The position numbers were made by a program, and so were the translations under genes. The notes under the pieces were generated by a model. It was not told where the DNA came from. It saw only the letters and a program-made list of their open reading frames with translations, and made no database searches. From Pseudomonas xantholysinigenes (GTDB taxonomy: Bacteria; Pseudomonadota; Gammaproteobacteria; Pseudomonadales; Pseudomonadaceae), in NCBI RefSeq assembly GCF_014268885.2, contig NZ_CP077095.1, positions 587,001 to 651,000 on the forward strand: a stretch of DNA of 64,000 nt, given 5' to 3'. This document shows, one piece after another, positions 4,922 to 40,307 of this stretch. Position 1 is the first letter of the stretch, and each line of letters starts with the position of its first letter.

Positions 4922-5631
4922 CAGGCCTCCCGAGGCGTGGCGGCGCGGTTGAGTTCGGCCAGGGACAGGTGGCGGTCGAACAATGGCGCCAGGCTCTGGT
5001 CGTGGCTGACGAACAGCAGGCTGGCACCGGCCGCCCGGCATTCGTCGAACAGCAGGCGGATAAAGGCCTCGCGGTTATCGGCATCGAGCGCCGAGGTGGG
5101 CTCGTCGGCGATCACCAGCTCCGGCTGGCCGATCAGCGCGCGAGCGGCGGCTACCCGTTGCTGTTGGCCGATCGACAGGCTGTCGGCGCGGCGTGCGAGC
5201 AACGCCGGATCATCCAGGCCAAGGTGGGCCAGCAACTGGGCGGCGGCCCGGTCGATACTGCCATGGCGTTGGCCGGCCCGTGTCGCCCGGCTTTTCGAGA
5301 AGCGACAAGGCAGCTCGACGTTCTCGCGCACCGAGAGAAACGGCAGCAGGTTGAACTGCTGGAAAATGTAGCCGGTATGATCGACCCGGAAGCGGTCGCG
5401 CGCACCCTGGCCCAAGCTCGCCAAGTCCTGGCCGAGCAGGTGGATGCTGCCCTGGCCTGGGCGGTTGACGCCGCCGAGCAGGCCCAGCAGGGTAGTCTTG
5501 CCACTGCCGCTGGGGCCCTTGAGGAACAGCGCTTCGCCGGCCTCCAGGCGCAGTGCCGGAATATCCAGCAGCGGCGCCTGGTCGGGCCAGGCGAACACCA
5601 GGTCACGCAGTTCGATCAGCGCCTGGCTCAT
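4921..5631 (-). CDS. ABC transporter ATP-binding protein (LolD/MacB class)
   Basis: A 236-residue nucleotide-binding domain. Walker A is GPSGSGKTT (about residues 39-47), the Q-loop lies in GYIFQQFNLLPFLSV, the signature is LSIGQQQR, Walker B is LVIADEPTSALD, and the H-loop is FVSHDQ. It closely resembles LolD/MacB ATPases, which pair with FtsX-type permeases such as the next gene. The start is one base after the DUF2796 stop. Part of the four-gene operon downstream of the Zur-like box. Its job is probably to power a periplasmic zinc-related process and not classical import. Confidence 0.92.
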   Translation of the reverse strand: MSQALIELRDLVFAWPDQAPLLDIPALRLEAGEALFLKGPSGSGKTTLLGLLGGVNRPGQGSIHLLGQDLASLGQGARDRFRVDHTGYIFQQFNLLPFLSVRENVELPCRFSKSRATRAGQRHGSIDRAAAQLLAHLGLDDPALLARRADSLSIGQQQRVAAARALIGQPELVIADEPTSALDADNREAFIRLLFDECRAAGASLLFVSHDQSLAPLFDRHLSLAELNRAATPREA

Positions 5632-6759: not shown

Positions 6760-7647
6760 TCAGAACAGCGCAGCGGACAGCTTGCGACGGTACACGCCGA
6801 CCAGCGGATGCTCGTTGCCGAGCAGTTCGAACACCTGCAGCAAGGCTTTCTGCGGCAAGCCATTCTCATAACCGCGATTGCGCTGGAACAGCTTCAGCAG
6901 CCCGTCCAGCGCCGCTTCATATTGCTGGCGCGCCAACTGCTGGATGCACAGCTGGTAGGCGGCTTCATCGTCCTGCGGGTTCTGCGCCAGGCGGCTTTTC
7001 AGCTCGGCGGCTTCCGGTAGCGTGGCGGCCTGGCGCAGGAAGGTCAGCTGGGCCTTGGCGCCGGCCAGGGCGGCCTTGTGCTCGTCGGTCTTGACCGCGT
7101 CCAGCACCACCTGGGCCTCGCCCAGTTCACCGCGCTCGGCCAGGCAGCGGGCATACAGAATCAGTGCCTCGGCGTTGCTGTTGTCTTCACCCAGCAGCAC
7201 CTGCAGCAGGGCTTCGGCTTCGCTGAAGCGGCTTTCGGCGAACAGCGCCTTGGCCTGTTCCAGCGGCGCGGCGACAGGCGCGGCGGGCATCTGCACGTGG
7301 GGCTCGAGCATGGCACGGATGGCTGATTCGGGCTGGGCGCCGGCAAAGCCGTCGACTGGCTGGCCGTCCTTGAACAGCACCACGGTCGGCAGGCTGCGGA
7401 TGCCGAACTGGGCCACCACCTGCTGCTCGACGTCGCAGTTGATCTTGGCCAGCAGCAGCTCGCCCTGGTAGCCCTCGGCGATCTTCGCCAGCAGCGGCAT
7501 CAGCGCCTTGCATGGCGCGCACCACTCGGCCCAGAAGTCCACCAGCACCGGCTTGTGGAAGGAGTTCTCGATGACCAGCTGCTGGAAGGTGGCATCTGTG
7601 GCATCGAAGATGTACGGCAGGCTTGTGTTAACAGGGACTTGGCTCAT
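6760..7647 (-). CDS. cnoX: Chaperedoxin CnoX (YbbN), thioredoxin-TPR protein
   Basis: A 295-residue protein. The N-terminal thioredoxin fold (about 1-115) holds FWAEWCAPCK with both cysteines (Cys43, Cys46) and the cis-Pro loop SLPTVVLF. The C-terminal part (about 125-295) is made of TPR-like helices (ALFAESRFSEAEALLQ, ALILYARCLAERGELGEAQ). CnoX protects substrates of GroEL and DnaK during oxidative stress. E. coli CnoX lacks the CXXC pair; the intact CAPC here suggests real thiol-disulfide activity, as in alphaproteobacterial CnoX. The start at 7647 removes a weakly supported 10-residue extension. The methyltransferase gene lies 29 bp upstream on the same strand. Confidence 0.9.
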   Translation of the reverse strand: MSQVPVNTSLPYIFDATDATFQQLVIENSFHKPVLVDFWAEWCAPCKALMPLLAKIAEGYQGELLLAKINCDVEQQVVAQFGIRSLPTVVLFKDGQPVDGFAGAQPESAIRAMLEPHVQMPAAPVAAPLEQAKALFAESRFSEAEALLQVLLGEDNSNAEALILYARCLAERGELGEAQVVLDAVKTDEHKAALAGAKAQLTFLRQAATLPEAAELKSRLAQNPQDDEAAYQLCIQQLARQQYEAALDGLLKLFQRNRGYENGLPQKALLQVFELLGNEHPLVGVYRRKLSAALF

Positions 7648-7676
7648 CGTGACTCTCGCAAACGTGAATGCCCCCA

Positions 7677-8336
7677 CTATAAAGGCTCGCGACTGGCGTG
7701 GTACAGGCTGACCCGGCGGAATTCGTGCGGCTCGGCCAGGTCCGGCAGGGTCAGTGCCTCGAGCACCCCGAGCGGGCGATATAGCGGGTGGCTGAAGTCG
7801 CGGACCCGCGAATCGGCGACCAGTGCCTCGCGGCCGCGGCTGAGAAACGCGTCCAGCAGCGGCAGGTTGGCGCGGTCGTACAGCACATCGGCCACCAGGA
7901 TCAGGTCGAAGCGGTCGGCCTCGGCGAAGAAATCGCGGCTATAGCCCAGTTCGACACCGTTGAGCGCCGCATTGGCGCGGCAGGCGTCGAGGGCCAGCGG
8001 GTCGAGGTCGCAGGCCACCACCTCCCGCGCGCCGGCATGGGCGGCGGCGATCCCGGCAATGCCCGAGCCGGCGCCGAAATCCAGCACCCGCTTGCCGCGC
8101 ACCCACTGCGGCTGCTGCGCCAGGTAGCGCGCCATGGCCAGGCCGCTGGCCCAGCAGAAGCTCCAGTAGGGCGGCTCTTCGAGGATGCGCCGGGTTTCTT
8201 CGCTGCTGAACGCCCGGTCCATGTTCTGATCGTCGATCAGCCAAAGCTTCAGCTCGCAGTCGGGCAGTTCGCTGACCACCAGCCGCGCTTCGCCGATCAG
8301 GCTGCCGAGGGCCTGTTGCAGGGCGTGCGGCGCCAT
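7677..8336 (-). CDS. Class I SAM methyltransferase, COG3897/ETFB-KMT-like
   Basis: A 219-residue Rossmann methyltransferase. Motif I is [13 protein letters not shown] (about residues 84-96), motif II is [14 protein letters not shown] and the post-motif is [11 protein letters not shown]. The order and the [18 protein letters not shown] segment match COG3897, often named nicotinamide N-methylase, whose studied members (METTL20 type) methylate lysines of the electron-transfer flavoprotein beta subunit. That substrate is a reasonable guess, not shown here. The gene abuts a lipoprotein gene upstream (stop at 8337) and is probably cotranscribed with it. Confidence 0.8.
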
Positions 8337-8789
8337 TTATGGCGCCTTTTCGAAGCGCAGCGGGCCGGTGGCCTGGGTCTGGGCCTGGGCAATGCGCACT
8401 GGCTGCAGGTGCAGGATCAACTGGCCGGAGCGGCTGGCGCGGCCACGCAGTTCGACCCGGGCACCGGCGGGGAAGGCCTCGGGGTTGAAGCGCAATTGGT
8501 AGGGCAGGGCCTGGCCGGTGCCGGTCAGATTGCTGCTGGCCAGCAGGCGTTGCGGGCGGCCACGTTCGTCGATGACCAGCAGGGCCAGCTCGACGTCGGC
8601 GCCGGCGGGGATGTCCATCAGGGTGCCGCTGAGTTCACGCTGGTAGGCCGGCAGTGGCCCCAGGGGCTGGGCTTTCTTCGCTACTTTGGCCGGCGTGGGC
8701 GCTGGAGTCTGTTCGGGCTTGGGCCGGTCGCTGCCGCAGGCGGTGAGCAGGGCGACGCAGCACAGCACGGCGAGCGCTCGATAGTGCAT
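8337..8789 (-). CDS. YbaY-family lipoprotein
   Basis: A 150-residue protein with a lipobox (LLTAC, Cys at about 18) after a short signal peptide, a Pro/Lys/Ala linker and a beta-rich domain ([23 protein letters not shown]…[21 protein letters not shown]) typical of the YbaY/YscW-like family. The start 8789 is chosen because AAGGAT lies 7 bases upstream. The function of the family is unclear; it is predicted to be anchored in the outer membrane. It is divergent from nrdR, with 105 bp between the starts. Confidence 0.8.
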
Positions 8790-8894
8790 GGGATGATCCT
8801 TCACGGGCAGATTTGCATGGATGGTAAACCCTTTGGCTTGTCTTGCCAGTGCAATGCGCTACCATGGCCCTCCCTTTTTTTGTTGCCTGCCACC

Positions 8895-9359
8895 ATGCAC
8901 TGTCCCTTTTGCGGTGCCAACGACACCAAGGTCATCGACTCGCGGCTGGTCGCCGAGGGCGAACAGGTGCGTCGCCGCCGTGAGTGCGTCGCCTGCGGCG
9001 AGCGCTTCACCACCTTTGAAACCGCCGAGCTGGTCCTGCCCCGGCTGATCAAGCAGGACGGTACCCGCCAACCGTTCGACGAAGACAAACTGCGTGCCGG
9101 CATGCAGCGCGCGCTGGAAAAGCGCCCGGTCAGCGTCGAGCGCCTGGAAGCGGCGCTGGCGCATATCAAGAGCCGCCTGCGCGCTACCGGCGAGCGCGAG
9201 GTGAAGTCGCTGGTGGTCGGCGAGATGGTCATGGCCGAGCTGCGCAAGCTCGATGAAGTCGCCTATATCCGTTTCGCCTCGGTCTACCGGCGCTTCCAGG
9301 ACCTCGACGAATTCCGCGAAGAAATCGACCGCCTGGCCCGCGAGCCAGCCAAAGAGTAG
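8895..9359 (+). CDS. nrdR: Transcriptional repressor NrdR
   Basis: A 154-residue protein, the normal length. The zinc ribbon uses Cys3, Cys6, Cys31 and Cys34 (MHCPFCG … ECVACG), and an ATP-cone domain follows from about residue 49 ([24 protein letters not shown]). NrdR senses (d)ATP and represses ribonucleotide reductase operons. It is the first gene of a run nrdR-ribD, separated from ribD by 2 bp, as in many gammaproteobacteria. The longer open frame upstream is not coding. Confidence 0.97.
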
Positions 9360-9361
9360 AC

Positions 9362-10489
9362 ATGTCCAGCCAAGCCATTCTCGACGCCCACTACATGGCC
9401 CGGGCCGTGGAACTGGCCCGCAAGGGCCTGTACAGCACCCACCCCAATCCGCGCGTAGGCTGTGTGATCGTGCGCGACGGCGAGGTGGTCGGCGAGGGCT
9501 GGCACATGCGTGCCGGCGAGCCGCACGCCGAGGTGCATGCCCTGCGCCAGGCCGGTGAGCGCGCCCGTGGCGCCTGCGCCTATGTGACCCTCGAACCCTG
9601 CAGCCACCATGGCCGCACGCCGCCGTGCGCCGAGGCGCTGGTCAAGGCCGGCGTGGCGCGGGTGGTGGCGGCCATGCAGGACCCCAATCCGCAGGTGGCT
9701 GGCAATGGCCTGCGCCGCCTGCGCGACGCTGGCATCGAGGTCGCCAGCGGTGTGCTCGAGGCCGAGGCTCGCGCGCTCAACCCGGGGTTCCTCAAGCGCA
9801 TGGAACAGGGCCTGCCGTTCGTGCGCGCCAAGCTGGCCATGAGCCTGGACGGCCGCACTGCCATGGCCAACGGCGAGAGCCAGTGGATCACCGGCCCGGC
9901 GGCGCGGGCCGCGGTGCAGCGCTTGCGCGCCCGCTCCAGCGTGGTGCTGAGCAGCGCCGAGAGTGTGCTGTTCGACAAGGCCCGGATGACCGTGCGCGCT
10001 GATGAGCTGGGTCTGGATGAGGCATCCACCGCCTTGGCCCTGTCGCGGCCACCGCTGCGCGTGCTGGTCGACGGACGCCTGCGCCTGCCGCTGGATGCGC
10101 CGTTCTTCCAGGCCGGGCCGGCGCTGGTGGTTACCGCCGCGAGCGACGATCCGCGCTACGCTGCCGCTGGTCATGAATTGCTGCGCTTGCCCGGCGCGGA
10201 CGGTCGCGTCGACCTGGCGGCCCTGCTGCAGGCCCTGGCCGCGCGTGGCGTCAACGAAATCCTGCTGGAGGCCGGTGCCGGCCTGGTCGGTGCCTTCGCC
10301 CGCCAGGGCCTGGTCGACGAGTACCAGCTGTTCGTCGCTGGCACCTTCCTCGGCTCCGAGGCGCGTCCGCTGCTGGACTGGCCGTTGTCGAAAATGAGCG
10401 AGGCACCACGGCTGAAAATCACCGAAATGCGCGCGGTCGGCGATGACTGGCGAGTCACGGCCATCCCCTTGCCGGTCGCCGGCGTATAA
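9362..10489 (+). CDS. ribD: Riboflavin biosynthesis deaminase/reductase RibD
   Basis: A 375-residue bifunctional enzyme that deaminates and then reduces the pyrimidine made from GTP. The N-terminal deaminase carries the zinc site His55-Ala-Glu57 and Cys80/Cys89 (PCSHHGRTPPC). The reductase domain follows from about residue 148 (VRAKLAMSLDGRTAMANGESQWITG, then EILLEAGAGLVGAF). Length is normal. It starts 2 bp after nrdR and leads the riboflavin operon. Confidence 0.97.
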   Translation: MSSQAILDAHYMARAVELARKGLYSTHPNPRVGCVIVRDGEVVGEGWHMRAGEPHAEVHALRQAGERARGACAYVTLEPCSHHGRTPPCAEALVKAGVARVVAAMQDPNPQVAGNGLRRLRDAGIEVASGVLEAEARALNPGFLKRMEQGLPFVRAKLAMSLDGRTAMANGESQWITGPAARAAVQRLRARSSVVLSSAESVLFDKARMTVRADELGLDEASTALALSRPPLRVLVDGRLRLPLDAPFFQAGPALVVTAASDDPRYAAAGHELLRLPGADGRVDLAALLQALAARGVNEILLEAGAGLVGAFARQGLVDEYQLFVAGTFLGSEARPLLDWPLSKMSEAPRLKITEMRAVGDDWRVTAIPLPVAGV

Positions 10490-28853: not shown

Positions 28854-29786
28854 TCAGGGGCTTATGAGCACGTGCCTGCCCTCGTGGCGCATGCGTACGC
28901 GGTAAGTCTGCGCCAGCATTGCCAAGGCCAGCGGCAGGTCGTCCAGCGGATAGGTGCCGGACACCGGCAAGTCAGCCAGCGACGGTTCGCATGCCACGGC
29001 TTGGTCGGTGTGGCGCATCAGTTCCTGTATCCATTGCCACAGTGGCATGTCCTGGGCCAGCAGCAGGCCATTGCGCCAGGCCAGCTGGCCCTCGCTGGCC
29101 GGCTCCGGCGGGCCGACGCGGGCCTGGCTGAAGCGGACTTGCTGGCCGGCCTGGACGACGGTCGGCTGGGCGCCTTGCACCTGCACGGCCCCTTCGTGGA
29201 CCGTCAACAGGGTTTCCCGAGGCAACTGGCGCACGCTGAAACGGGTGCCCAGCGCCTGCATGATCCCTTGCTCGGTCTGGACTCGCAGGGGGCGGGCAGG
29301 GGCTTGTGGGTCCGGCGCGGTGACGATGTAGATCTCACCCTGTTCCAGGTGCAGCAGGCGTTGCTTGGCGTCGAACCTCAGCGCCAGGGCGGTGGCACTG
29401 TTGAGCGAGACCTGGCTGCCGTCGACCAGCAGCACATCGCGACGCTCACCCACGTTGGTCTGGTAATCGGCGCGGTATTCGCCGCGGCGTGACAGCCACC
29501 AGCCCAGTGGCGCGACCGCAAGCAGCACCGCCAGCCCGCGCAGGACCGCGCGACGGCTGTTGCCTCCTGTTCGTTCCAGGGTGTGCCGGGCCAGGGTCGG
29601 CGGCAGGCCGCCGAGGCGCACCAGCAGGCGTTGCGCGCGTTTCCAGGCACGTTCGTGCTGTGGATCGGCGTTGCGCCAGCGCTCCAGCTCGGCCCGTTGC
29701 GCCGGGGTCAACGGGCCTTCCTGGAGCAACAGCAGCCAGGCGGCGGCCTGGGCCAGTACTGCCTGGGCAATGGGTTGGTCAGTCAT
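28854..29786 (-). CDS. fecR: FecR-family anti-sigma regulator
   Basis: A 310-residue protein. The cytoplasmic part (about 1-80) has the DUF4880-like WLLLLQEGPLTPAQRAELERWRNADPQHERAWKRAQ pattern; one membrane helix (LAVLLAVAPLGWWL, about 84-97) follows; the periplasmic FecR domain contains VLLVDGSQVSLNSATALALRF, HLEQGEIYI and LGTRFSVRQ. It should pass the signal from the TonB receptor to the sigma factor gene upstream, whose end overlaps its start by 8 bp. Confidence 0.92.
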   Translation of the reverse strand: MTDQPIAQAVLAQAAAWLLLLQEGPLTPAQRAELERWRNADPQHERAWKRAQRLLVRLGGLPPTLARHTLERTGGNSRRAVLRGLAVLLAVAPLGWWLSRRGEYRADYQTNVGERRDVLLVDGSQVSLNSATALALRFDAKQRLLHLEQGEIYIVTAPDPQAPARPLRVQTEQGIMQALGTRFSVRQLPRETLLTVHEGAVQVQGAQPTVVQAGQQVRFSQARVGPPEPASEGQLAWRNGLLLAQDMPLWQWIQELMRHTDQAVACEPSLADLPVSGTYPLDDLPLALAMLAQTYRVRMRHEGRHVLISP

Positions 29787-30306
29787 CGAGCATCTGGCTC
29801 AGGCAGGCGAGGTAACCCTCGTGGATGTATTTCTTCACGGTGGGCAGGGCGATGTTCAGGGCCTGGGCGATGTCCTTCTGTTTCATGCCGTCCAGCGTCG
29901 CCATCAGGAATGCCTGGCGTACGCGTGGGCGCAAGCTGTCGAGCACGGCGTCGACCTCGTGCAGGGTCTCGAGGATGACCGTCTGCAATTCCGGCGATGG
30001 ATGTGCTGTCGGTGGCACAGTGGCCAGGGCTTCGAGCCAGGCCTGCTCCAGTGAGTGACGACGGCGCCAGCTGACCAGCACGCAATTGGCGATGCGCGTG
30101 AGATACGCCCGAGGCTGGCGGATGCTTTCCGGCTGTGCGGCCTCGCGGCTGAGCAGCACGCGCAGGAAGATATCCTGGGCCAGGTCGTCGGCCACGCCAT
30201 GTCCCCATGAGCGCAGGCGATAGGCCAGCCAGTTGCGCAGCCAGGCATGGTTCTCGAGGTACAGCGTGGTCACGGCGCAGTGCGGGGGTGTTTCAAAGGC
30301 AGTCAT
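29779..30306 (-). CDS. fecI: FecI-type ECF sigma factor
   Basis: A 175-residue sigma factor. Region 2 is WLRNWLAYRLRSWGHGVADDLAQDIFLRVL and region 4 is FLMATLDGMKQKDIAQALNIALPTVKKYIHEGYL. The start ATG 30306 gives the normal size; a longer frame upstream overlaps the Fur-like box and is rejected. It is divergent from the receptor gene and forms a classic iron cell-surface signalling trio with the FecR protein and receptor. Confidence 0.92.
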   Translation of the reverse strand: MTAFETPPHCAVTTLYLENHAWLRNWLAYRLRSWGHGVADDLAQDIFLRVLLSREAAQPESIRQPRAYLTRIANCVLVSWRRRHSLEQAWLEALATVPPTAHPSPELQTVILETLHEVDAVLDSLRPRVRQAFLMATLDGMKQKDIAQALNIALPTVKKYIHEGYLACLSQMLDD

Positions 30307-30332
30307 GGGCAGTGGCGTCGGCAGGACAGGTC

Positions 30333-30351
30333 GCAAATGCAAACCATTATC
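30333..30351. promoter_or_regulatory. Fur box between fecI-type gene and TonB receptor
   Basis: The 19-mer at 30333-30351 (GCAAATGCAAACCATTATC) matches 14 of 19 positions of the Fur consensus GATAATGATAATCATTATC. It lies 26 bp upstream of the sigma factor start and 132 bp upstream of the receptor start. Iron repression of the sigma factor is the simplest reading. A possible -10 (TATACC) for the receptor lies near 30402. Confidence 0.6.
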
Positions 30352-30483
30352 AACGGTTTTGCGTAGATCACAAGACGATGTGAAAATACGAATCGATTGC
30401 ATATACCTTTTTCGATTTCGAGCGACAGAGGGAATGACAGCCCGCCGCGAGTGCCGGGCGCCAACCCTTCGAGCGAGAGAAGC

Positions 30484-33402
30484 ATGCCCGCAACCCATCG
30501 GCTTTCCCCTGTTTCGCGCCCCACGTCTCCCCTGCGTTTTGCCGTGCATTGCGCGCTGCTTGGCTGCCTGGTGGCGGGCGCCGCCACCCAGGCCCAGGCC
30601 GCCAGTGCGGCGCCTGGCGTGGCCACCCGGCTGGATGACGCGACGCTGCGCGACTACGACATCGCCCAGGGTGCCCTGGGCACCTCGCTGGGGCTGTATG
30701 CCAATCAGTCCGGGCTGTTGCTGTCCTATGATTCGGAGCTTACCCGCGGGCGTAGCGCGCCAGCGCTCAAGGGCCGCTACACGGTACTGGAGGCTGCGCG
30801 GCGGCTACTGGCGAACACCGGCTTGCAACTGCTGCCGGGGGCTCGTGGGGCTTACTTGCTCGCACCACAAGGCAAGGCCTCCGCGAACGCGACCGAGTTG
30901 TCGGCGACCGTTGTCGACGCCGCGCTGGACGACCCGCAACGGGACACCTATCGAGCACCACGTTCCACCGTGCACCTGACCCGCGCGGACCTCGACCGCT
31001 TCGCCACGGTGTCGGTGGGCGACATGCTCAAGGGCGTGGCCGGGGTGCAGGTCGGTGACAGTCGCAACGGCGGCGCGCTGGACGTGAATATTCGCGGCAT
31101 CCAGGGGCAGAGCCGGGTGGCTGTGCGGGTCGATGGCTCCGAGCAGGCGCTGGACGTATACCGCGGTTATGGCGGCACCCAGCAGCGCAGCTACATCGAC
31201 CCCGACCTGCTCAGCAGCGTGACCGTGAACAAAGGCCCCAGCACCCGCTCCGGGGCGATCGGCGGCTCGGTGGAAATGAAGACCCTGGGCGTCGATGACA
31301 TTCTGGTGGACGGCAACAGCGTGGGCGTGCGCCTGACCGGCAATCTGTGGAACAACGGTGTCGAGCCGGCCAATCGCAGCCGCCATTCCAAGGACCAGGA
31401 CCTGAGCACGGTGCCCCGCGACAGCCGCCCTGGCCTGTTCGGTTCGCAGGCTGAGTCCGGCAGTGCCGCGTTTGCCTATAGCCATGAGCGATTCGACCTG
31501 GTGGCCGCCTATGCGCACCGCAACCAGGGCAACTATTTCTCCGGCAAGAAAGGCCAGGATCGCTATCGCCTGTACGACCGTTGGGGCGACGAACAGCCAA
31601 GCGTGGCCAATACCTACAACGCCGGCGAGGAGGTGCTCAACTCGTCGTCGGAAACCGACTCCTACCTGTTCAAGACCACCTGGCGCCTGGCCGACGATCA
31701 TACCCTGGACCTCGGCTACCGCCGTTTCGACGGCCAGATGGGCGAGATCATGCCGTCGGACATCTTCCGCTACGGTACCGCGGGGATCTACCAGTACCCC
31801 ACGAGCGAAGTGCGGCTGGATGCCTACACCGCCCGCTATCACTACCTGCCCGCAGGCAATCCGCTGGTGGACCTGACCAGCACCCTGTGGCTGACCGACG
31901 CCAACACCAGCACCTTGACCGCCGCCTGGATGGCGCCCAAGTCGCAGCTGTTCCGCACCGACCGTGGCTGGACGCGCCAGGACAACCGCCGCATCGGCGG
32001 CGACCTGAACAACGTGTCGCGTTTCAGCACTGCCCACGGCGACTTCAAACTCGACCTGGGCGGCGCGTTCCAGCTCGAGGACCTGCAGCCGCAGAAGGGC
32101 GTGCTGACCACCCAGCACGACATCAATGCCAATCGTATGCTGCGTGACGCCTCGCGCCAGGAATTCAGCTTCAACGGCAAGCTGGAGTACCAGCCCATCG
32201 AGCAGGTGACGCTGTGGGGCGGTGGGCGCTACGCCCATTACCAGACCAAGGACAACACAGTTCTGGCCGAGGCCCGGCGTGAGGACCGCAAGCTGCGCTG
32301 GATCACCGCCAGCAGCCCGGGGCACTGGGGCAGCATGACCTGGTTCCCGGACCAGAACGGGCAATACACCGACGCCACCGACCCGCGACTGAACAACGGC
32401 ATCGTCTTCGAAAACAGCAACGAGCCGTTCAACGGCGTGCCTTTCAACGAGGCCGGCGCGACCAGCGTGACGGTGCATCCGGAAAGCATCAGCAATGTGG
32501 TCACCGGCTACGACTACACTCCCCAGGGCAAGAGCAGCGGTGGAGGCTTCTCTCCAGCGTTCGGCATCAACGTCGAGTTCCTGCCCGACACCTTCGTGTA
32601 CGCCTCCTACACCCAGGGCCTGCGCCTGCCTTCGCTGTTCGAGACCAGCCAGGGCACCCAGCAGGTGACCCCGGGCAAGCACCTCAAGCCCGAGCGTTCG
32701 CGCAGTTGGGAGTTCGGTGTCAGTGCCTTGCGCGACAACCTGCTGCGCAACGGCGACGAGGCCTCGATCAAGCTGGCGTACTTCGACAACCAGATCAAGA
32801 ACTACATCACCCGCTACTACGACCCAAGCCCAGGCCTGTGGGGGCAGATGACCTTCAGCAACACCGACAGCTTCAGCACCCGTGGGCTGGAGTTGCAGTC
32901 GCACTATGACGCCGGACGTGTATTCGCCGATCTCTCGGCCACTTACTACCTGAAGACCGAAACCTGTGACGCGGCGTTCGCCAGCACGCTGCGCAGCACG
33001 GCCAACCGCTACCAGCGTACCCAGGACACCCCGGACTGCACTGCAGGCAGCTATATGGGGTCCTACACCAACACCCAGAATCCGCCGCGTTTCTCGGCCA
33101 ACCTGGTCAGCGGCCTGCGTTTCTTCGACCAAGCACTGACCCTGGGCGGGCGCATGACCTACACCTCGGGGCCCACCGCGCAGATGGACAAGCCCTGGCA
33201 GACCGGGGCCACCACGCCGCAGATCGACTACCGCTCGGTGGCGTTGTTCGACCTGTTTGCCCGTTACAAATTGCTCGAGCACACCGAGGTGAACCTATCG
33301 GTGCAGAACCTGACCGATCGTTACTACCTGGACCCCTTGGCCCAGAGCTTCATGCCTGCGCCGGGGCGCACCTGGCGAGTGGGGGTGGTGACGCGCTTCT
33401 AG
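30484..33402 (+). CDS. TonB-dependent receptor with STN signalling domain (heme/siderophore type)
   Basis: A 972-residue outer-membrane receptor. Signal peptide to about residue 40 (ending QAQA), STN domain (about 55-125: DIAQGALGTSLGLYANQSGLLLSYDSEL … YTVLEAARRLL), plug (about 165-280: VGDMLKGVAGVQVGDS … IRGIQGQSRVAVRVDGSEQALDV … VTVNKGPSTRSGAIGGSV) and a long barrel with C-terminal LTDRYYLDPLAQSF…WRVGVVTRF. The STN domain and the divergent fecI/fecR genes show it senses its ligand and induces its own synthesis. The plug resembles heme/hemoglobin receptors more than ferric-citrate receptors, but the ligand is not certain. Start 30484 follows GAGAGAAG. Confidence 0.88.
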   Translation: MPATHRLSPVSRPTSPLRFAVHCALLGCLVAGAATQAQAASAAPGVATRLDDATLRDYDIAQGALGTSLGLYANQSGLLLSYDSELTRGRSAPALKGRYTVLEAARRLLANTGLQLLPGARGAYLLAPQGKASANATELSATVVDAALDDPQRDTYRAPRSTVHLTRADLDRFATVSVGDMLKGVAGVQVGDSRNGGALDVNIRGIQGQSRVAVRVDGSEQALDVYRGYGGTQQRSYIDPDLLSSVTVNKGPSTRSGAIGGSVEMKTLGVDDILVDGNSVGVRLTGNLWNNGVEPANRSRHSKDQDLSTVPRDSRPGLFGSQAESGSAAFAYSHERFDLVAAYAHRNQGNYFSGKKGQDRYRLYDRWGDEQPSVANTYNAGEEVLNSSSETDSYLFKTTWRLADDHTLDLGYRRFDGQMGEIMPSDIFRYGTAGIYQYPTSEVRLDAYTARYHYLPAGNPLVDLTSTLWLTDANTSTLTAAWMAPKSQLFRTDRGWTRQDNRRIGGDLNNVSRFSTAHGDFKLDLGGAFQLEDLQPQKGVLTTQHDINANRMLRDASRQEFSFNGKLEYQPIEQVTLWGGGRYAHYQTKDNTVLAEARREDRKLRWITASSPGHWGSMTWFPDQNGQYTDATDPRLNNGIVFENSNEPFNGVPFNEAGATSVTVHPESISNVVTGYDYTPQGKSSGGGFSPAFGINVEFLPDTFVYASYTQGLRLPSLFETSQGTQQVTPGKHLKPERSRSWEFGVSALRDNLLRNGDEASIKLAYFDNQIKNYITRYYDPSPGLWGQMTFSNTDSFSTRGLELQSHYDAGRVFADLSATYYLKTETCDAAFASTLRSTANRYQRTQDTPDCTAGSYMGSYTNTQNPPRFSANLVSGLRFFDQALTLGGRMTYTSGPTAQMDKPWQTGATTPQIDYRSVALFDLFARYKLLEHTEVNLSVQNLTDRYYLDPLAQSFMPAPGRTWRVGVVTRF

Positions 33403-33417
33403 GTGACGAATCCTCGA

Positions 33418-33450
33418 CCAGCCCCGAGGCTGCAATGGCATCTGGGCTGG
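33418..33450 (+). terminator. Possible hairpin terminator after the TonB receptor
   Basis: CCAGCCC (33418-33424) and GGGCTGG (33444-33450) can pair across a 19-base loop, 16 bp after the receptor stop. No T-run follows, so confidence is low. The rest of the 195-bp gap holds a perfect palindrome (33501-33512) and no gene. Confidence 0.3.
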
Positions 33451-33500
33451 TCTGCAAGGGGGGCTTCACTATGTAGCATGCCTTACGTGGCGCAGAGAAA

Positions 33501-33512
33501 GCATACGTATGC
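33501..33512. promoter_or_regulatory. Palindromic putative operator upstream of the luxE-type operon
   Basis: GCATACGTATGC is a perfect 12-bp palindrome, 86 bp upstream of the first gene of the LuxE/LuxC-like operon. A binding site for a dimeric regulator is plausible; the HTH gene at 39609 is one candidate. No clear -35/-10 pair was seen beside it. Confidence 0.35.
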
Positions 33513-33597
33513 ATGCGAGATTCTTCCTATCAAAGTTCGCTGCGCATCGGCATAGAGTCTGCCTCTCTGAAGGTCTGGAACCTACCCGAGACGCTCA

Positions 33598-34722
33598 ATG
33601 GCTCTTACGCATACAGAAGCACTCTGCGCGCTGGCTGACCCCTATCGCGCCGATGCGCACGCCAATCATCTGTTCGACATGGCGATGCGGGAAATCACGG
33701 TCTACCACCAACGGCACACCCCCGGCTATGCCAATTGGCTGCGTCAGCAGCGCTTCGACCCGACGGACCTGGACTTGCCCAATTGGGGGACGCTGCCCCC
33801 CATTTTCGCCAACTACCTGAAGCGGAACCTGCTGTTCAGCGAGGCCGGGCGCGACGCCTTGGAGCTGACGTCCTCAGGGACTTCCGGGCAGAAAAGCCGG
33901 ATGCGTTATGACGAGCGAAGCCTTGGAGCCGCCCAGGGCATGATCGACCGGATCTTCCGTTATTACGGCTGGGAGACCTTGCAGACACCCTGCAATTACC
34001 TGCTCCTGGGCTATGAACCCGCCGAGCACGCTACGCTCGGTACGGCCTACACCGACAACTTCCTGTGCAAGTACGCACCGGTCAAGCAGTCGTTCCATGC
34101 CCTGCGCCACAACGGCAAAGGCAGCGAATTCGATCCGTTCGGCGTGATCGGCGCGTTGCAGCGTTTTGCCGACGACGGTGCGCCCCTGCGTATCCTGGGT
34201 TTTCCTGCGTTCATGTGGTTCGTGCTCGAACGCATGCGTGAAATGAAACTGCCCGCCTTGTCGTTCGATGCCAACTCGCTCGTGCTGTTCGGCGGCGGCT
34301 GGAAAACCCATGCCGACCAGCAGGTGCCCAAGTCGCAACTGTATGCCCGTATCACCGAGCAGTTGGGTATTCCGACGCCGCGTTGCCGGGACGGCTACGG
34401 TGCCGTCGAGCATTGCGTGCCGTACATCGAATGTGCGCACCACCACCTGCATGTTCCCACCTATGCCCGGGCTTTTACCCGCGACCCGCGCACCTTTGCC
34501 TTGCAAGAGTACGGCCTGCCCGGGTTGCTGCAGTTCGTTTCCCCCTACATCACCTCGAGCCCGGCCCACAGCATCGTGATGAGTGACCTGGCCGTGCTGC
34601 ACCGCGCCGCGACCTGTGGCTGCGGCCTTGCCACCGACTGGTTCGAGATTCTTGGGCGCGCCGGTACCGGCAAGAGCCGCAGTTGCGCACTGGCCGCCTC
34701 TGAACTGATAAGGGAGCCCTGA
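33598..34722 (+). CDS. LuxE-type acyl-protein synthetase
   Basis: A 374-residue member of the LuxE family (related to PaaK). The adenylate loop is TSSGTSGQKSRMRYDE (about residues 91-106); DGYGAVEHCVPYIEC contains the aromatic/acid motif of this superfamily; near the C-terminus GRAGTGKSRSCALAASE holds Cys363, matching the acyl-accepting Cys of bacterial luciferase LuxE. LuxE activates a carboxylic acid as acyl-AMP, loads it on its own Cys and hands it to LuxC for reduction. No luciferase genes are present. The start has a weak ribosome site, so the N-terminus could differ slightly. First gene of a four-gene run with gaps of 2, 27 and -4 bp. Confidence 0.85.
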   Translation: MALTHTEALCALADPYRADAHANHLFDMAMREITVYHQRHTPGYANWLRQQRFDPTDLDLPNWGTLPPIFANYLKRNLLFSEAGRDALELTSSGTSGQKSRMRYDERSLGAAQGMIDRIFRYYGWETLQTPCNYLLLGYEPAEHATLGTAYTDNFLCKYAPVKQSFHALRHNGKGSEFDPFGVIGALQRFADDGAPLRILGFPAFMWFVLERMREMKLPALSFDANSLVLFGGGWKTHADQQVPKSQLYARITEQLGIPTPRCRDGYGAVEHCVPYIECAHHHLHVPTYARAFTRDPRTFALQEYGLPGLLQFVSPYITSSPAHSIVMSDLAVLHRAATCGCGLATDWFEILGRAGTGKSRSCALAASELIREP

Positions 34723-34724
34723 TC

Positions 34725-37133
34725 ATGTACCTCATACATGGACAACACCTGGCAGACCTGACGCTGGAGCAGGCATTGCAACGGTTGACCGCTGGATTGG
34801 CGCACACCTTGAGCCAGCCTTGCCGCCTGGATAGCGTGCTTGCTTGTACCGGGCGTTTCGCTGAAAAGTTGCTGGACCAAAGCTTCCTGGCCGAGCTCGA
34901 TGCCGCCAGCCGCGAAGAGCTCCGGGCGTTCTGCCAGGCCGATGTGCTGCGCGCCAAGCTGGAGCACGAACTGGGGGACAACCCGTTCTCCCTGCGCCGT
35001 ATCGACTACCAGGCCGCTCACTTCGAAAGCTGGCGTCCCTTGGGGGTCGTCGTGCACATCACGCCAGCCAATGCTCCGCTGTTGCCGTTTTTCGCCGTCC
35101 TCGAAAGCCTGCTGGTGGGAAACATCAATTGGTTGCGACCGAGTGAGCGCGAGCAGGGTTTGAACACCCGGTTGCTGCAGGCATTGCTCGAGTGTGACGA
35201 GTCTGGCCAGCTTGCCAGCCACGTCGCCGTGCTACCGGTGGCCAAGGCTGAACTGCCCAAGTTGCTGGCGCATGCCGACGGAGTTTGCGCCTGGGGTTCG
35301 AACGAGACGCTGAAGGCCATTCGCGATCAACTGCCCGATGGCTGTCGCTGGATACCCTGGGGGCACAAGATCAGCTTTGCCTGGCTAGTGCCGGATGCCG
35401 TGGATGGCCCGGCGCTGGACGCGCTGGTCGATGAGGTCTGTCGCCTCGACCAGCAGGCCTGCTCCAGCCCCCAGGTGGTGTTTGTCGACAGCGACGATAC
35501 GGCCACGCTGCATGCCATCGGTGAACAACTGGCTATGGCGCTGCAACGTCGTCAGGCCTGTTGGCCTGCGTTGCGACCCAACCTGCAGGAAGCTGCGCAG
35601 ATCACCACGACCCTGGCCCTCGCCGAGCTGGACCAGGCCTTTTCCGACAGGCCCGGGCAGGTCTGGAGAGGTGACGGTTGGCAGATCGTTCTCGAGCACA
35701 GGATGACCCTCGAGCCCTCACCGTTGTTTCGTAGCCTGTTGCTGCGACCGCTACCACGGCATGCGCTGATCCAGGCTTTGCGCCCCTGGCGGACCCGCCT
35801 GCAAAGCTGCGGCCTGATCTGCTCAGCCCAGGCGTTCGCCGGGCTCGGCCAGCTGTTGCTGGCGGCCGGGGTCGACCGGGTGACTGCCATTGCGCAGATG
35901 CAAGCCGGCTACAGTGGCGAACCTCACGACGGTGTGTATGCCTTGAGCATGCTGGCTCGCCGAGTATCGGTGAGCCTCGCGGCGGATTGCCTCGCCGGGC
36001 AGGCGACCCTCGATCCGCTGGAGCCGGCCCCGATGAGTGCCGTCGGCCTGCCGATCATGGATCGCAGGGCGTTTCTGGAAGACTCGATGAGCGAGCGTGC
36101 GCAGTTGTTCTTCCGCTCCGGCGGCAGCAGTGGCGCGCCTAAGCTGGCCGGTTTTACCTACCGTGACTATCACCGGCAGATGCAAGCGGCGGCCGATGGC
36201 CTGTTCGCCGCGGGGCTGGACCCGGCGACGGATAACGTGCTCAACCTGATGTATGGCGGCAATCTCTATGGCGGGCTGCTGAGTTTCTTCACCGTGCTGG
36301 ACAAGCTGGGGGCCAGGCATTACCCCATGGGCGGTCCGCAGGACGACGATTACAGCGAGATCGCCCGGTTCATCGTCAGCCAGGGGATCGACACGCTGAT
36401 CGGCATGCCCACCACCGTGCATCAGCTGTTCCTGCGCGAGGCACGCACCCTGCGGGCTTATGGTGGGATCCGCAAGGTCCTGCTGGGTGGCGAGCATCTT
36501 GGCGCGGCCCAGCGCACCTTCATCCAGGGCTTCGGCGTCCAGACCATTCGCTCGGTGCTCTATGGCTCGGTGGATGCCGGCCCGTTGGGCTACAGCTGCG
36601 CTGCCAGTCCGGATGGGGTGTTCCACCTGATGAGCGATATCCAGTGGCTGGAAATCGTCGACCTGGCACGTGATGAGCCTGTGGCGGTTGGAGAGATCGG
36701 GCGATTGCTGATCACCTCCCTGGCCCGCGAGGGCCAGCACCTGGCTCGCTATGACATCGGCGATACCGGACGCTGGGTGAGTGGGAGGTGCGCATGTGGT
36801 TCCCCCGCGCCGCGCTTCGAACTGTTGGGGCGTCATGGTGGCCTGGTGCGGATCGGTTCCCTGTTCATCCAGCCGCAGCGCTTGGCTGAACTGGCCGAAG
36901 CACCGGTGCAACTGCACCTTGAGCACGATCCCGAAAACGGCATCGAGCGCATTCGGCTATGGGTCGACGCTGATCCGGAGATCGTCAAGGCCAAGGTATG
37001 CCGCGATACGGAGCTGAACATGGCCTTGGAGCTTGGCGTGCTGGACCTGCAGGTTGCGCAGTTGGCGCAGCGGCATTTCGAGCGCCATCCGCAGTCGGGA
37101 AAAACGCCGCTTGTGCTGGATAAACGTCTTTAG
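34725..37133 (+). CDS. LuxC-type acyl reductase fused to PaaK-type AMP-forming ligase
   Basis: An 802-residue fusion. Residues about 1-430 are a LuxC acyl-CoA/acyl-protein reductase: WRPLGVVVHITPANAPLLPFFAVLESLLVGN, NWLRPSE, and the catalytic-Cys segment LDQQACSSPQVVF (Cys246). Residues about 440-802 are a PaaK-like adenylate-forming enzyme: FFRSGGSSGAPK (464-473), GGNLYGGLLSFFTVLDKLG, YGSVDAGPLGYSC, RYDIGDTGRW and a C-terminal GKTPLV with the catalytic Lys. No acyl carrier domain lies between. The fusion could activate an acid and reduce it to an aldehyde, with LuxE or CoA as the thiol. ATG 34725 follows AAGGGAG. Confidence 0.85.
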   Translation: MYLIHGQHLADLTLEQALQRLTAGLAHTLSQPCRLDSVLACTGRFAEKLLDQSFLAELDAASREELRAFCQADVLRAKLEHELGDNPFSLRRIDYQAAHFESWRPLGVVVHITPANAPLLPFFAVLESLLVGNINWLRPSEREQGLNTRLLQALLECDESGQLASHVAVLPVAKAELPKLLAHADGVCAWGSNETLKAIRDQLPDGCRWIPWGHKISFAWLVPDAVDGPALDALVDEVCRLDQQACSSPQVVFVDSDDTATLHAIGEQLAMALQRRQACWPALRPNLQEAAQITTTLALAELDQAFSDRPGQVWRGDGWQIVLEHRMTLEPSPLFRSLLLRPLPRHALIQALRPWRTRLQSCGLICSAQAFAGLGQLLLAAGVDRVTAIAQMQAGYSGEPHDGVYALSMLARRVSVSLAADCLAGQATLDPLEPAPMSAVGLPIMDRRAFLEDSMSERAQLFFRSGGSSGAPKLAGFTYRDYHRQMQAAADGLFAAGLDPATDNVLNLMYGGNLYGGLLSFFTVLDKLGARHYPMGGPQDDDYSEIARFIVSQGIDTLIGMPTTVHQLFLREARTLRAYGGIRKVLLGGEHLGAAQRTFIQGFGVQTIRSVLYGSVDAGPLGYSCAASPDGVFHLMSDIQWLEIVDLARDEPVAVGEIGRLLITSLAREGQHLARYDIGDTGRWVSGRCACGSPAPRFELLGRHGGLVRIGSLFIQPQRLAELAEAPVQLHLEHDPENGIERIRLWVDADPEIVKAKVCRDTELNMALELGVLDLQVAQLAQRHFERHPQSGKTPLVLDKRL

Positions 37134-37160
37134 TCCGTTTGCAGGAAGAGGAAGTGAAGC

Positions 37161-38450
37161 ATGCATGACAACTGCCCCCCCCTTGAACTGACACGGCTGG
37201 TCAACCATGTCCGTGCACATTCTCCCTATTATGCCGAGCTGTGGCGAAAGGTCCCCCAGGCAGGGTGGACACTTGCAGACCTGCCTTTGGTCGATCTTCG
37301 TCACTACTGGGCGGCCGGCCTCGACCTGGATAGCTGGCCAGTGCTGACCGGGCCGATGAGCGGCGCGGTGGTCTACAAGACCGGCGGCACGACCGGTAGC
37401 GCCAAGCACTCGGTATTCACCCAGGCCGAGTGGGAGCAGTTCGTTGCTACATTCGGGCGTAGCCTGTCCTCTTTGCTGGCGCCAGGTGACCGAGTGGCCA
37501 ACCTGTTCTTTGCTGGCGACCTGTACGCCAGTTTCCTGTTCATTCAGGGCGCGCTGGCCCGTGCGCAAGTGCCCATCTGCGTGTTCCCCTTCACCGGCGC
37601 GGTCGAACCGCAGGTATTGACCGAGCAAATCGAGCTACACCAGATCAACGTGCTGGCCGGGGTGCCGGGAAAGTTGCTGCAGTATGCCTCGCTGCTTGAG
37701 CAGCAAGGTGTGCGTTTGCCCGGGGTCAGGATGGTGTTGTATGGCGGTGAAAGCCTGTTCGTCGAGCAGCTTCAGCTGTTCAGGGCCGTGCTGCCCAATG
37801 CCCGGGTGGTTTCGATTGGTTGCGCCAGCGTGGACGCGGGCTTGATTGGCGCGAGTACCCCCGATTGCCTGCCGGGCGAGCATCGCGCGTTCGAACCTGA
37901 GACCCTGGTCGAGATTGTTGATGAAGCCTCGGGGCTGCCGATCCATGAGGCGCACTGCGCCGGTTTGCTGGTCGTGACCAATCTGACGCGGACTCTGATG
38001 CCGATCATCCGCTACCCCGTGGGCGATCTGGCGGAGTGGACCGAAGCGCCCGGACGCGCGGGGCGCAAGTTCAGGCTGATGGGCCGTAGCAGCCAGGGCA
38101 ACCGGGTAAGGGTCGGTTACGCGACACTGTTCCCTGACGATCTGGCGCAAGTGATCCTCGCACGCCTTGGTCCGCGCCAGTGGCAACTGACTATCGATCA
38201 GGTCAATGGGGTCGATCATATCGTGCTGCGCATCGCTCATGACAAGGATCCGGCAGCGGCCAGCGCGTTACTGCAAGCCATCGGGCGCAAGGACCCTGCG
38301 GTCGTGGAGCTCATGGCCGAAGGCGCGCTGAGGATTGCGATCGAGTGGTGTCGACCGGCGCAGTTGGCGACGCATCGACGTACCGGAAAGCTGCAGCGTG
38401 TCGTTGATCGCCGCGACTATTGCGGCCCTGCAGGACGGTTGCCGCGATGA
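37161..38450 (+). CDS. PaaK-like adenylate-forming enzyme
   Basis: A 429-residue protein related to phenylacetate-CoA ligase. Seen: LTRLVNHVRAHSPYYAELW (typical N-terminus), the nucleotide loop VYKTGGTTGSAKHS, LFFAGDLYASFLFIQG, VLAGVPGKLLQYASLL, VRMVLYGGE, MPIIRYPVGDLAEW and a C-terminal TGKLQRVVDRRD with the expected Lys. It differs from true PaaK in substrate-pocket segments, so the acid it activates is unknown. It lies 27 bp after the fusion gene and overlaps the GNAT gene by 4 bp. Confidence 0.82.
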   Translation: MHDNCPPLELTRLVNHVRAHSPYYAELWRKVPQAGWTLADLPLVDLRHYWAAGLDLDSWPVLTGPMSGAVVYKTGGTTGSAKHSVFTQAEWEQFVATFGRSLSSLLAPGDRVANLFFAGDLYASFLFIQGALARAQVPICVFPFTGAVEPQVLTEQIELHQINVLAGVPGKLLQYASLLEQQGVRLPGVRMVLYGGESLFVEQLQLFRAVLPNARVVSIGCASVDAGLIGASTPDCLPGEHRAFEPETLVEIVDEASGLPIHEAHCAGLLVVTNLTRTLMPIIRYPVGDLAEWTEAPGRAGRKFRLMGRSSQGNRVRVGYATLFPDDLAQVILARLGPRQWQLTIDQVNGVDHIVLRIAHDKDPAAASALLQAIGRKDPAVVELMAEGALRIAIEWCRPAQLATHRRTGKLQRVVDRRDYCGPAGRLPR

Positions 38451-39361
38451 TCGTCGTGCGAGGTTTCGAAGTACAGGATGCGCAGCCGATCAGCGACTTG
38501 TTCATGCGGGTGTACGGGGAGCATTACTTCTACCCGCAGATCTACCTGCCGTCGGTCATCTGCCACCATAACCGTACCCAGCAATGGCAGTCGGTGGTTG
38601 CGTTGCGCGGGGAGCGTATCGTCGGCCACGCCCTGTTGTGGCGTTCTGCCGATGACGCAAGTTGTGCGGAACTGGCGATGATCGTGGTCGATCCGCAACT
38701 CCGGGGGCGGGGCATCGCGGGGCGCATGGGGCGCTACCTGTGCGATCACGCGCGGCGGCAGGGCATGTCGGTACTGACGATCAAGATGGTTGCCAGCCAT
38801 GAGTGGTCGCAACGGCTGGGTGACTCGCTGGGCTTCCAGGTGACCGGGCTGCTGCTCGACTACGTGGATTCGGCGCTGTGCCCACGTCAACGGGAAAGTG
38901 CCATTCTGGGCGTACTGGCGTTCCAGGCTCAGCCTATTCCATTGACGTATACGCCAGTAAACGCGCCCGAGTGGATTGGGCCGTTGCAGGAACACTTCGG
39001 TACCGTAGCGCCGGGCTTTGCAGTGCCGGGCGCGGAGCCGACCCTGACCACCATCCGCGAGAATCGCCTGGATGTGACCCTCGAGCATCCCACCAGCGGC
39101 GATGCCATCGAACTCATGCGCTTGCCGTCCAAGTGGTTGACCCATGTGCAGGTGCGGATGGACATGAACCTGCCCTCGGTGTTGCCTGTGCTGCATCGCT
39201 GTGGCTTCGTTGACACGGGCCTGACCCTGGGGACCGGGCGGCAATGGTACTGGCTGTTGCAGCGAGGCTTTTCCAACAGCTCGTTACAACTGCACTGCCC
39301 CATGGCGCGTGCTTTACAGCATGCCGCCCAGCAGCGCATGGCATTGGCGAAAAGTGGTTGA
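38447..39361 (+). CDS. GNAT-family acyltransferase, probably tandem domains
   Basis: A 304-residue protein. The first GNAT domain (about 1-150) has LAMIVVDPQLRGRGIAGRMGRYL, the acyl-CoA binding loop, and MVASHEWSQRLGDSLGFQVTG. The rest (about 160-304) looks like a second, divergent GNAT fold (VRMDMNLPSVLPVLHRCGFVDTGLTLG). ATG 38447 overlaps the upstream stop (ATGA), so it is translationally coupled to the ligase gene. It could acylate an amine product of the pathway or modify one of the enzymes. A terminator follows directly. Confidence 0.78.
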   Translation: MIVVRGFEVQDAQPISDLFMRVYGEHYFYPQIYLPSVICHHNRTQQWQSVVALRGERIVGHALLWRSADDASCAELAMIVVDPQLRGRGIAGRMGRYLCDHARRQGMSVLTIKMVASHEWSQRLGDSLGFQVTGLLLDYVDSALCPRQRESAILGVLAFQAQPIPLTYTPVNAPEWIGPLQEHFGTVAPGFAVPGAEPTLTTIRENRLDVTLEHPTSGDAIELMRLPSKWLTHVQVRMDMNLPSVLPVLHRCGFVDTGLTLGTGRQWYWLLQRGFSNSSLQLHCPMARALQHAAQQRMALAKSG

Positions 39362-39386
39362 AGGCTGGAAGTCGACAGGCATTAAA

Positions 39387-39407
39387 AAGCCGGCTTGTGG
39401 CCGGCTT
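39387..39407 (+). terminator. Intrinsic terminator of the luxE-type operon
   Basis: AAGCCGGC (39387-39394) pairs perfectly with GCCGGCTT (39400-39407) across a TTGTG loop, 26 bp after the GNAT stop, followed by CTT. An A-run precedes it, so it may also work on the opposite strand for the HTH gene. The 190 bases to 39608 hold no convincing gene. Confidence 0.75.
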
Positions 39408-39608: not shown

Positions 39609-40307
39609 TCAAGCGGGGCGTTCCGGGCGCAGGCTCGACCACCAGAAAACCCAGCCGAGGACTTCCAGGCCCTGAACTCTGCGCTGGTAGGCGGTATAGC
39701 GTTCGCTGGGGTGGTTGAGGCGATCATGGCTGTGCAGGCACAGCGTGCCGTTGTGGCCGAGGCTGAGGTAGTGCACCCGCAGTCGGCCATTATGCAATAG
39801 CGCGTAGCACTCGCCGTCGACCACCCGGGTGAGGCTCCTGTCGATACCCAGAAGGCTGCCCTGGGGCAGCAACGGTGTCATGTTGGCGTGCGGCATGCTC
39901 ACGCAGATGGCGGCGTGTGGCGGCACCTGCAAGGCGTCCAGCGCCTGTCGCGGGATGGCCTGGCAGTGGCCCGGCAGCGCTTGCAGCGTACTCTCCAGAA
40001 GGCGATGAAAGGGCAGGCTGGAATGCTCCGTGCCTTGTGCGAGCAAGGGCGACAGCGCGCCATTGAGCGGCATGGGGGGCAATACGGCGGCAAGTGGCGC
40101 CGGGTGCTTCGAGCCTTCGCCGCTGCGCAGCCAGCGCCTGTTCACACAAAACAGATCGGCGAGTTCATCCAGGCGTGACAACGGCACGCCGCGTTTGAAC
40201 CAGTTGTTGACGTGCTGGGGCGTGACGTTGCGTTGGGCGGCAAAATCGGAAGGGGTCAGGTTGCACTCCAGCAGGAGGGCTTTGAGACGGTCACCGGAAG
40301 TGTTCAT
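39609..40307 (-). CDS. HTH repressor with degenerate S24 (LexA/CI-like) domain
   Basis: A 232-residue protein. The N-terminal HTH (about 5-50) reads RLKALLLECNLTPSDFAAQRNVTPQHVNNWFKRG. The C-terminal domain (about 128-215) follows the phage-repressor S24 layout (MTPLLPQGSLLGIDRS, DGECYALLHNGRLRVHYL, LCLHSHDRLNHPSERY). The autocleavage Ser is replaced by Asn142 (expected GDSMxP, found HANMTP) and the Lys by His179, so self-cleavage is unlikely and the domain may only dimerise or bind a ligand. It converges on the luxE-type operon end and may regulate it. Confidence 0.78.
   Translation of the reverse strand: MNTSGDRLKALLLECNLTPSDFAAQRNVTPQHVNNWFKRGVPLSRLDELADLFCVNRRWLRSGEGSKHPAPLAAVLPPMPLNGALSPLLAQGTEHSSLPFHRLLESTLQALPGHCQAIPRQALDALQVPPHAAICVSMPHANMTPLLPQGSLLGIDRSLTRVVDGECYALLHNGRLRVHYLSLGHNGTLCLHSHDRLNHPSERYTAYQRRVQGLEVLGWVFWWSSLRPERPA

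Follow-up and report, generated by a model that had tools for sequence, protein, structure and literature searches.

What might be the product of an operon that places relatives of the bioluminescence proteins LuxE and LuxC beside PaaK-type ligases and an acetyltransferase? We considered this question for four genes within a 64,000-nucleotide stretch of Pseudomonas xantholysinigenes (contig NZ_CP077095.1, positions 587,001 to 651,000; hereafter the window, to which all coordinates refer unless another locus is named). Judged from its sequence, the operon is a Pseudomonas version of the described leup operon and not a new pathway. We put at about 0.9 the probability that it is orthologous to leupABCD and would make leupeptin (N-acetyl-Leu-Leu-argininal), or a close analogue, without a peptide synthetase. 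The original prediction, made from the sequence alone, had described a LuxE / LuxC-PaaK / PaaK / GNAT operon, and the open reading frames and Pfam matches establish that this operon is real: the four genes lie on one strand (33598-39361; Table 1), tightly spaced, with gaps of 2-27 bases or an overlap.

Correspondence with the leup cluster of Klebsiella

The taxonomic spread of the four genes pointed to the leupeptin operon of Klebsiella (Li et al. 2020, as cited in PMC8283571 and PMC11480411), and published primers offered a test of the connection. The published cluster extends from leupA to leupD (locus tags AB185_06775-06790, CP011636.1) over nucleotides 315353-321183 (5,831 bp) of Klebsiella CAV1374, a transporter adjoins leupABCD, and primers for its amplification are given in Table 1 of the same paper (PMC8283571, which, like PMC11212599, PMC11480411 and PMC10548850 below, is cited from excerpts) and in a corrigendum (PMC10028735). 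In Klebsiella michiganensis DSM 25444 (locus L032), the LuxE gene runs from an ATG at 6863 or 6872 to 7999 and contains an exact match to primer leupA_f (6924-6944), and primer leupB_r has an exact match at 8139-8158 on the minus strand, inside the LuxC-PaaK gene (8001-10409). With 0 mismatches in either primer, the product spans 6924-8158 and measures 1,235 bp, the same as the published size. Matches to the published flank primers lie at 5004 and 12799, on either side of the block formed by the transporter and the leup genes, and the distance from the LuxE start to the GNAT end (12699) is 5,828 or 5,837 bp, depending on the start codon, against the published 5,831. A gene of the major facilitator superfamily (MFS) lies beside the leup genes in this strain, as does the transporter in PMC8283571. 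From the primer positions, the product size and the cluster length, we deduced that leupA is the LuxE gene, leupB the LuxC-PaaK fusion, leupC the stand-alone PaaK and leupD the GNAT gene. We regard this sequence-based assignment as firm; for leupC and leupD it rests on gene order and length.

The proteins of the window carry the corresponding domains. LeupA matches Pfam LuxE (PF04443) with 97.7 bits against a cut-off of 24.9, and LeupB matches LuxC with 354.5 bits (cut-off 21) and AMP-binding with 29.9 bits, a borderline value equal to the cut-off of 29.9; LeupC matches AMP-binding with 34.1 bits and LeupD matches GNAT with 45.4 bits, its second half having barely any coverage in fold searches. 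The start of leupD is most likely the ATG at 38447, which overlaps the leupC stop (ATGA), rather than the TTG at 38420. In an alignment of nine sequences (the window and eight relatives), the presumed adenylation lysines, Lys793 in the fusion and Lys410 in the stand-alone PaaK, are invariant. The same holds for Cys363 of LuxE and Cys246 of LuxC, which the original prediction had described as intact and which align with the cysteine stretches KGCSLS (LuxE) and DQQACFS (LuxC) of the solved LuxC-LuxE structure, PDB 7xc6. Its statement that LuxD, LuxAB, carrier protein and synthase are lacking was likewise borne out: at E 0.1, none of the four proteins matched a condensation, carrier or nonribosomal peptide synthetase (NRPS) reductase domain in Pfam, and no luxA, luxB or luxD was found among the eight proteins scanned between 28854 and 40307.

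Table 1. Genes and sequence elements of the leup region of the window
Feature	Position	Strand	Description
FecR	28854-29786	-	upstream neighbour
FecI-type sigma factor	29779-30549 (open reading frame)	-	upstream neighbour
haem-type TonB receptor	ends 33402	+	directly before the operon; weak N-terminal STN match
hairpin (ACCAGCCC ... GGGCTGGT)	33417..33451	+	between TonB receptor gene and leupA; no T run
40-base block	33519..33558	+	upstream of leupA; aligned in the window, L029, L030, L036 and L046
leupA orthologue	33598..34722	+	LuxE-type acyl-protein synthetase, 374 amino acids; adenylate loop TSSGTSG; acceptor Cys363
leupB orthologue	34725..37133	+	802 amino acids; LuxC reductase (~1-426, Cys246) fused to PaaK-type ligase domain (~440-802, Lys793)
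leupC orthologue	37161..38450	+	stand-alone PaaK-type ligase, 429 amino acids; Lys410
leupD orthologue	38447..39361	+	two-part protein, N-terminal GNAT acetyltransferase, coenzyme A loop RGRGIA; 304 amino acids from ATG 38447
hairpin AAGCCGGC-TTGTG-GCCGGCTT	39387..39407	+	downstream of leupD; possible terminator, read by eye
regulator	39609-40307	-	downstream; S24-peptidase domain and weak helix-turn-helix match; DNA also in leup-less relatives

Distribution, kinship and genomic setting

How widely is this gene set shared? A search for the fusion covered 57 genomes, namely that of the window, 35 of the same genus and 21 of other genera. The full-length fusion was found in the window's genome and in 8 of the 35, all 8 of which have the four-gene order, and in 0 of the 21. 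The LeupA gene (E 1e-20) is present, as a single copy each, in 60 of 298 genomes of the genus, the window's genome included. Of 398 genomes sampled widely across the phylum, three match at E 1e-25 or better: that of the window, another that has nearly all of the fusion, and a third that has just the LuxC part. The named genomes contain 181 loci with a gene related to the fusion; in the best 80 of these 181, which we examined, LuxE, LuxC-PaaK, PaaK and GNAT follow one another in the same order and on the same strand in every case, with LuxE or GNAT matched over a shortened stretch in L042, L044 and L092. Because 8 of 8 genomes of the genus and 80 of 80 loci share it, the order is not a matter of chance. 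The original prediction had named a lack of joint conservation elsewhere as one ground for giving it up; the set is instead strongly conserved.

By title, the 80 loci belong to Pseudomonas (44), Xenorhabdus (19), Photorhabdus (6), Rugamonas (2) and Chromobacterium (2), with single loci from Klebsiella, Erwinia, Morganella, Burkholderia, Parachitinimonas, Pantoea and an Enterobacterales bin. An MFS gene, which the earlier account had left out while describing the gene set itself correctly, lies directly upstream in 51 of them, including 41 of the 44 titled Pseudomonas. It is missing from that position in all 19 Xenorhabdus and all 6 Photorhabdus loci and in L029, L030, L036 and L046, which belong to the lineage of the window. 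Elsewhere in the window's genome, an unlinked MFS gene (L153; G000:C1:1027775-1028974) encodes a protein, possibly an exporter of the leup product, that has 55% identity to the exporter linked to leup in another Pseudomonas. In L021 (1414-7443 on the reverse complement) and its equivalents, of fluorescens type, genes that we named by eye from sequence as FecR-like, acylase-like and small Fur-like winged-helix precede the MFS gene, and this FecR-like gene has 24-27% identity to the FecR of the window.

A quick tree of LeupA plus LeupB was built from 79 rows, the window and 78 of the 80 loci (L044 and L092, with a short LeupA, were excluded); the program warned of long branches for L035 and L046. 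The window pairs with L029, then with L030/L036 and L046, and this group joins Klebsiella, Erwinia and Morganella with 98 in the Shimodaira-Hasegawa-like approximate likelihood ratio test (SH-aLRT). Next come Parachitinimonas and the Enterobacterales bin, and then a group of 30 that holds Photorhabdus, Xenorhabdus, Chromobacterium, Burkholderia and Rugamonas, with 39 other Pseudomonas copies on the other side of the tree. A tree in which the window and the other Pseudomonas-titled rows (42) form a single clade was rejected (approximately unbiased test, p-AU 3e-6), which suggests that leup has moved between genera. Producers named in the literature are Klebsiella oxytoca/michiganensis and Photorhabdus luminescens (PMC11480411) and Xenorhabdus bovienii (PMC11212599); these genera occur in the nearest group or in the group of 30, and leupeptin or a near analogue is accordingly favoured as the predicted product.

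In this lineage, which has no linked MFS exporter, the genes lie right behind the gene for a haem-type TonB receptor, and in four relatives they are missing from that place. The receptor occurs in 27 of the 298 genomes of the genus (E 1e-150). Eight genomes have it at an identity of at least 85%, and four of these (the window, G125, G147 and G210) carry leup, adjacent to the receptor in all; in the other four (G123, G190, G194 and G220) no LeupA match was found anywhere in the genome, the LeupA hits described above serving as positive control. In the latter four, sequence matching the window from 39371 onwards, just behind leupD, starts 8 to 90 bases after the receptor gene. This match runs directly into the downstream regulator in L162, L163 and L164, an empty site; in L161 only ~35 bases match after the receptor, and ~2.8 kb of other DNA precedes the regulator. 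A stretch that matches the downstream hairpin, which the terminator scan did not call, is found within 91 bases after the receptor gene in all four leup-less relatives. The region 33403-39371 is a presence/absence cassette, leup having been either gained or lost between the receptor gene and this hairpin. A foreign composition of the operon was rejected, since its GC content in 1-kb intervals (0.607-0.655) falls inside the range of the whole stretch examined (0.575-0.687).

The cassette also seems to have its own start region, as suggested by the upstream hairpin and the 40-base block. The hairpin is a possible terminator or attenuator: the RNA fold of 33403-33470 has a z of -2.5, with 3 of 200 shuffles as good, and an equivalent hairpin exists in L029. 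The block is a possible promoter or regulatory region, to judge from the alignment; a matrix built from its five sequences finds it in four lineage loci and in 0 of the other 76. A sigma-70 promoter scan found no promoter. The palindrome GCATACGTATGC upstream of leupA was dismissed, because among 138 loci it occurs solely in the window's own stretch (two copies), and it is near chance once mismatches are allowed.

Searches beyond these genomes extended the range of relatives. In a plasmid search by tblastn, 60 records matched, 6 of them over most of the fusion. Two of the 6 are conjugative IncFIB/IncFII plasmids of Salmonella enterica strains and keep the order of the leup genes (L170:4872-10630, L171:4872-10614); L171 has no annotated GNAT gene and matches LeupD only in part. 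A separate search found no plasmid that carries most of the operon at near-identity, and among 20,395 Escherichia coli records none holds a near match to the Klebsiella cluster. The remaining four of the 6, with 37.7-42.3% identity, come from Streptomyces and Streptantibioticus, two of them from the same strain. In L168:2857-10298, L167:3124-10484 and L169:2899-10577, a five-gene set encodes PaaK, MFS, GNAT, LuxE and LuxC/PaaK, in that order, with three I36 peptidase-inhibitor genes nearby in L168. Leupeptin itself is said to have been first described, from actinomycetes, by Aoyagi et al. in 1969. The five-gene sets are a candidate alternative route for actinomycete leupeptin, and no description of them appears among the leupeptin literature matches listed; the Streptomyces route is treated as NRPS-made in PMC10548850.

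Predicted chemistry and competing explanations

In the fatty-acid reductase of luminous bacteria, LuxE activates the acid onto a cysteine, and the acyl group passes to a cysteine of LuxC and is reduced. In the route predicted for the window, LeupD would acetylate leucine with acetyl-coenzyme A, and LeupC and the C-terminal, PaaK-type domain of LeupB would adenylate Ac-Leu and Ac-Leu-Leu, forming the amide bonds to Leu and Arg; N-acetylation was assigned to the GNAT protein and amide formation to the PaaK enzymes as the remaining reactions that leupeptin requires. Following the luminous-bacteria pattern, LeupA would then adenylate the C-terminal carboxylate and load the acyl group on its own Cys363; the LuxC domain of LeupB would take over this group on Cys246 and, with NAD(P)H, reduce it to the aldehyde. 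This aldehyde would trap the catalytic Ser or Cys of trypsin-like and papain-like proteases, and pyrazinones cyclised from it could act as signals. The gene set, its order, the intact motifs and the orthology and close kinship to the Klebsiella copies are observed here, and the leup products and the ligase and reductase logic come from the literature; which enzyme takes which step we infer from the protein families, and that this strain makes the compound is likewise a prediction. In X. bovienii SS-2004, leupeptin assembly relies on AMP-dependent ligases, separate enzymes that form the amide bonds, and on a reductase that yields the aldehyde (PMC11212599), and X. bovienii T228 (L058) carries the four genes.

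Several observations weigh against the identification with leup. The primer comparison used DSM 25444 rather than the CAV1374 record; the tree was quickly made, with SH-aLRT and no bootstrap, and its midpoint root serves for drawing only; no MFS exporter lies beside the operon of the window; and none of the four proteins reaches an NCBIfam equivalog cut-off. An adjacent transporter was not taken as a defining feature of leup, because none of the 25 Xenorhabdus and Photorhabdus loci has an MFS gene upstream. Sequence divergence is also uneven: identity to the Klebsiella members is 66% for LeupA and 64% for LeupB, and it falls to 58% for LeupC and 45% for LeupD, so that the acyl group or the residues could differ. 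Might the operon, then, make another N-acyl peptide aldehyde, with other residues, another acyl group or a lysinal or homoargininal end? The leup products of K. oxytoca/michiganensis comprise leupeptin, a lysine analogue and derived pyrazinones, and the Xenorhabdus and Photorhabdus operons yield a homoarginine derivative (PMC11480411). Against this stand the conservation of LeupA and LeupB, the presumed aldehyde-forming pair, and the presence in the closest group of the K. michiganensis copy, from the kind of organism proven to make leupeptin, and we consider such a departure from leupeptin unlikely.

The failure to reach any equivalog cut-off is also what speaks for a small-molecule pathway that is undescribed and has nothing to do with leupeptin, the proposal of the original prediction. 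The chemistry that it foresaw (acid activation, reduction to an aldehyde, N-acylation, and a bioactive or signalling small molecule as the outcome) agrees well with leupeptin. Its novelty does not hold: it knew of no described pathway with this exact set and had itself named a described cluster of the same architecture as what would overturn the idea, and leupABCD is such a cluster. Orthology, order and length all fit the published genes and the window stands beside the Klebsiella copy in the tree, so that we judge an unrelated pathway very improbable. A fatty-acid reductase complex making long-chain aldehydes, like that of luminous bacteria, would account for the LuxE and LuxC domains, for both acceptor cysteines and for the matches to the solved structure. 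It is scarcely credible in view of the NCBIfam equivalog scores (65.8 of 550 bits for LuxE, 46.1 of 750 bits for LuxC), the lack of luxA, luxB and luxD among the proteins scanned and the PaaK and GNAT partners in all 80 loci; the partners and the low scores likewise led us to reject a relic of bioluminescence.

The neighbouring TonB receptor and FecI/FecR genes had also raised a siderophore or metallophore pathway, which was rejected because close relatives have the receptor without the operon and because only 3 of the 80 leup loci (L029, L030, L036) have that receptor upstream. In Klebsiella, a leupeptin-derived pyrazinone is a signal and raises iron-acquisition genes (PMC11480411); any such link in the operon of the window is speculation by analogy. 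It seems quite unlikely to us that the cassette, lying between the haem-type receptor and that receptor's terminator, would make a divergent aldehyde other than leupeptin, or a pyrazinone, together with haem or iron uptake and in the service of an iron-acquisition programme.

The preferred reading, a leupeptin-type operon, has a practical side. Annotated records give domain names only (acyl-protein synthase, AMP-binding protein or acyl-CoA reductase, phenylacetate-CoA ligase, GNAT), and such operons are therefore easily missed; the original prediction, too, had left out that this one is described. A leup operon in Pseudomonas is not reported among the leupeptin literature matches listed, and a report may be in print. 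Recognition turns a seemingly novel cluster into a testable protease-inhibitor locus.

Comparison with known systems

The predicted product falls in the same class as the NRPS-made antipain and flavopeptin, which are N-capped, protease-inhibiting peptide aldehydes (PMC10548850); unlike those systems, the four proteins of the window match no carrier, condensation or NRPS reductase domain. With the LuxC-LuxE fatty-acid reductase (PDB 7xc6) the operon shares the fold of the LuxC part and both acceptor cysteines, whereas its LuxC is fused to a PaaK domain, its presumed substrate is a peptide and not a fatty acid, and LuxD, LuxA and LuxB were not found among the eight proteins scanned beside it. 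The LuxC-PaaK fusion looks like a natural enzyme that both activates and reduces a carboxylate, assembled from parts of bioluminescence. The leup operons of Photorhabdus and Xenorhabdus have these four genes in an identical order and, in 25 loci, no MFS gene directly upstream; their LeupB has ~55% identity in L049 and L058, and the neighbouring genes, named by eye, differ. The leupABCD cluster of K. michiganensis/oxytoca has an adjacent transporter, whereas the operon of the window stands next to a haem-type TonB receptor and has diverged in sequence; the two share the four gene types, their order and their strand.

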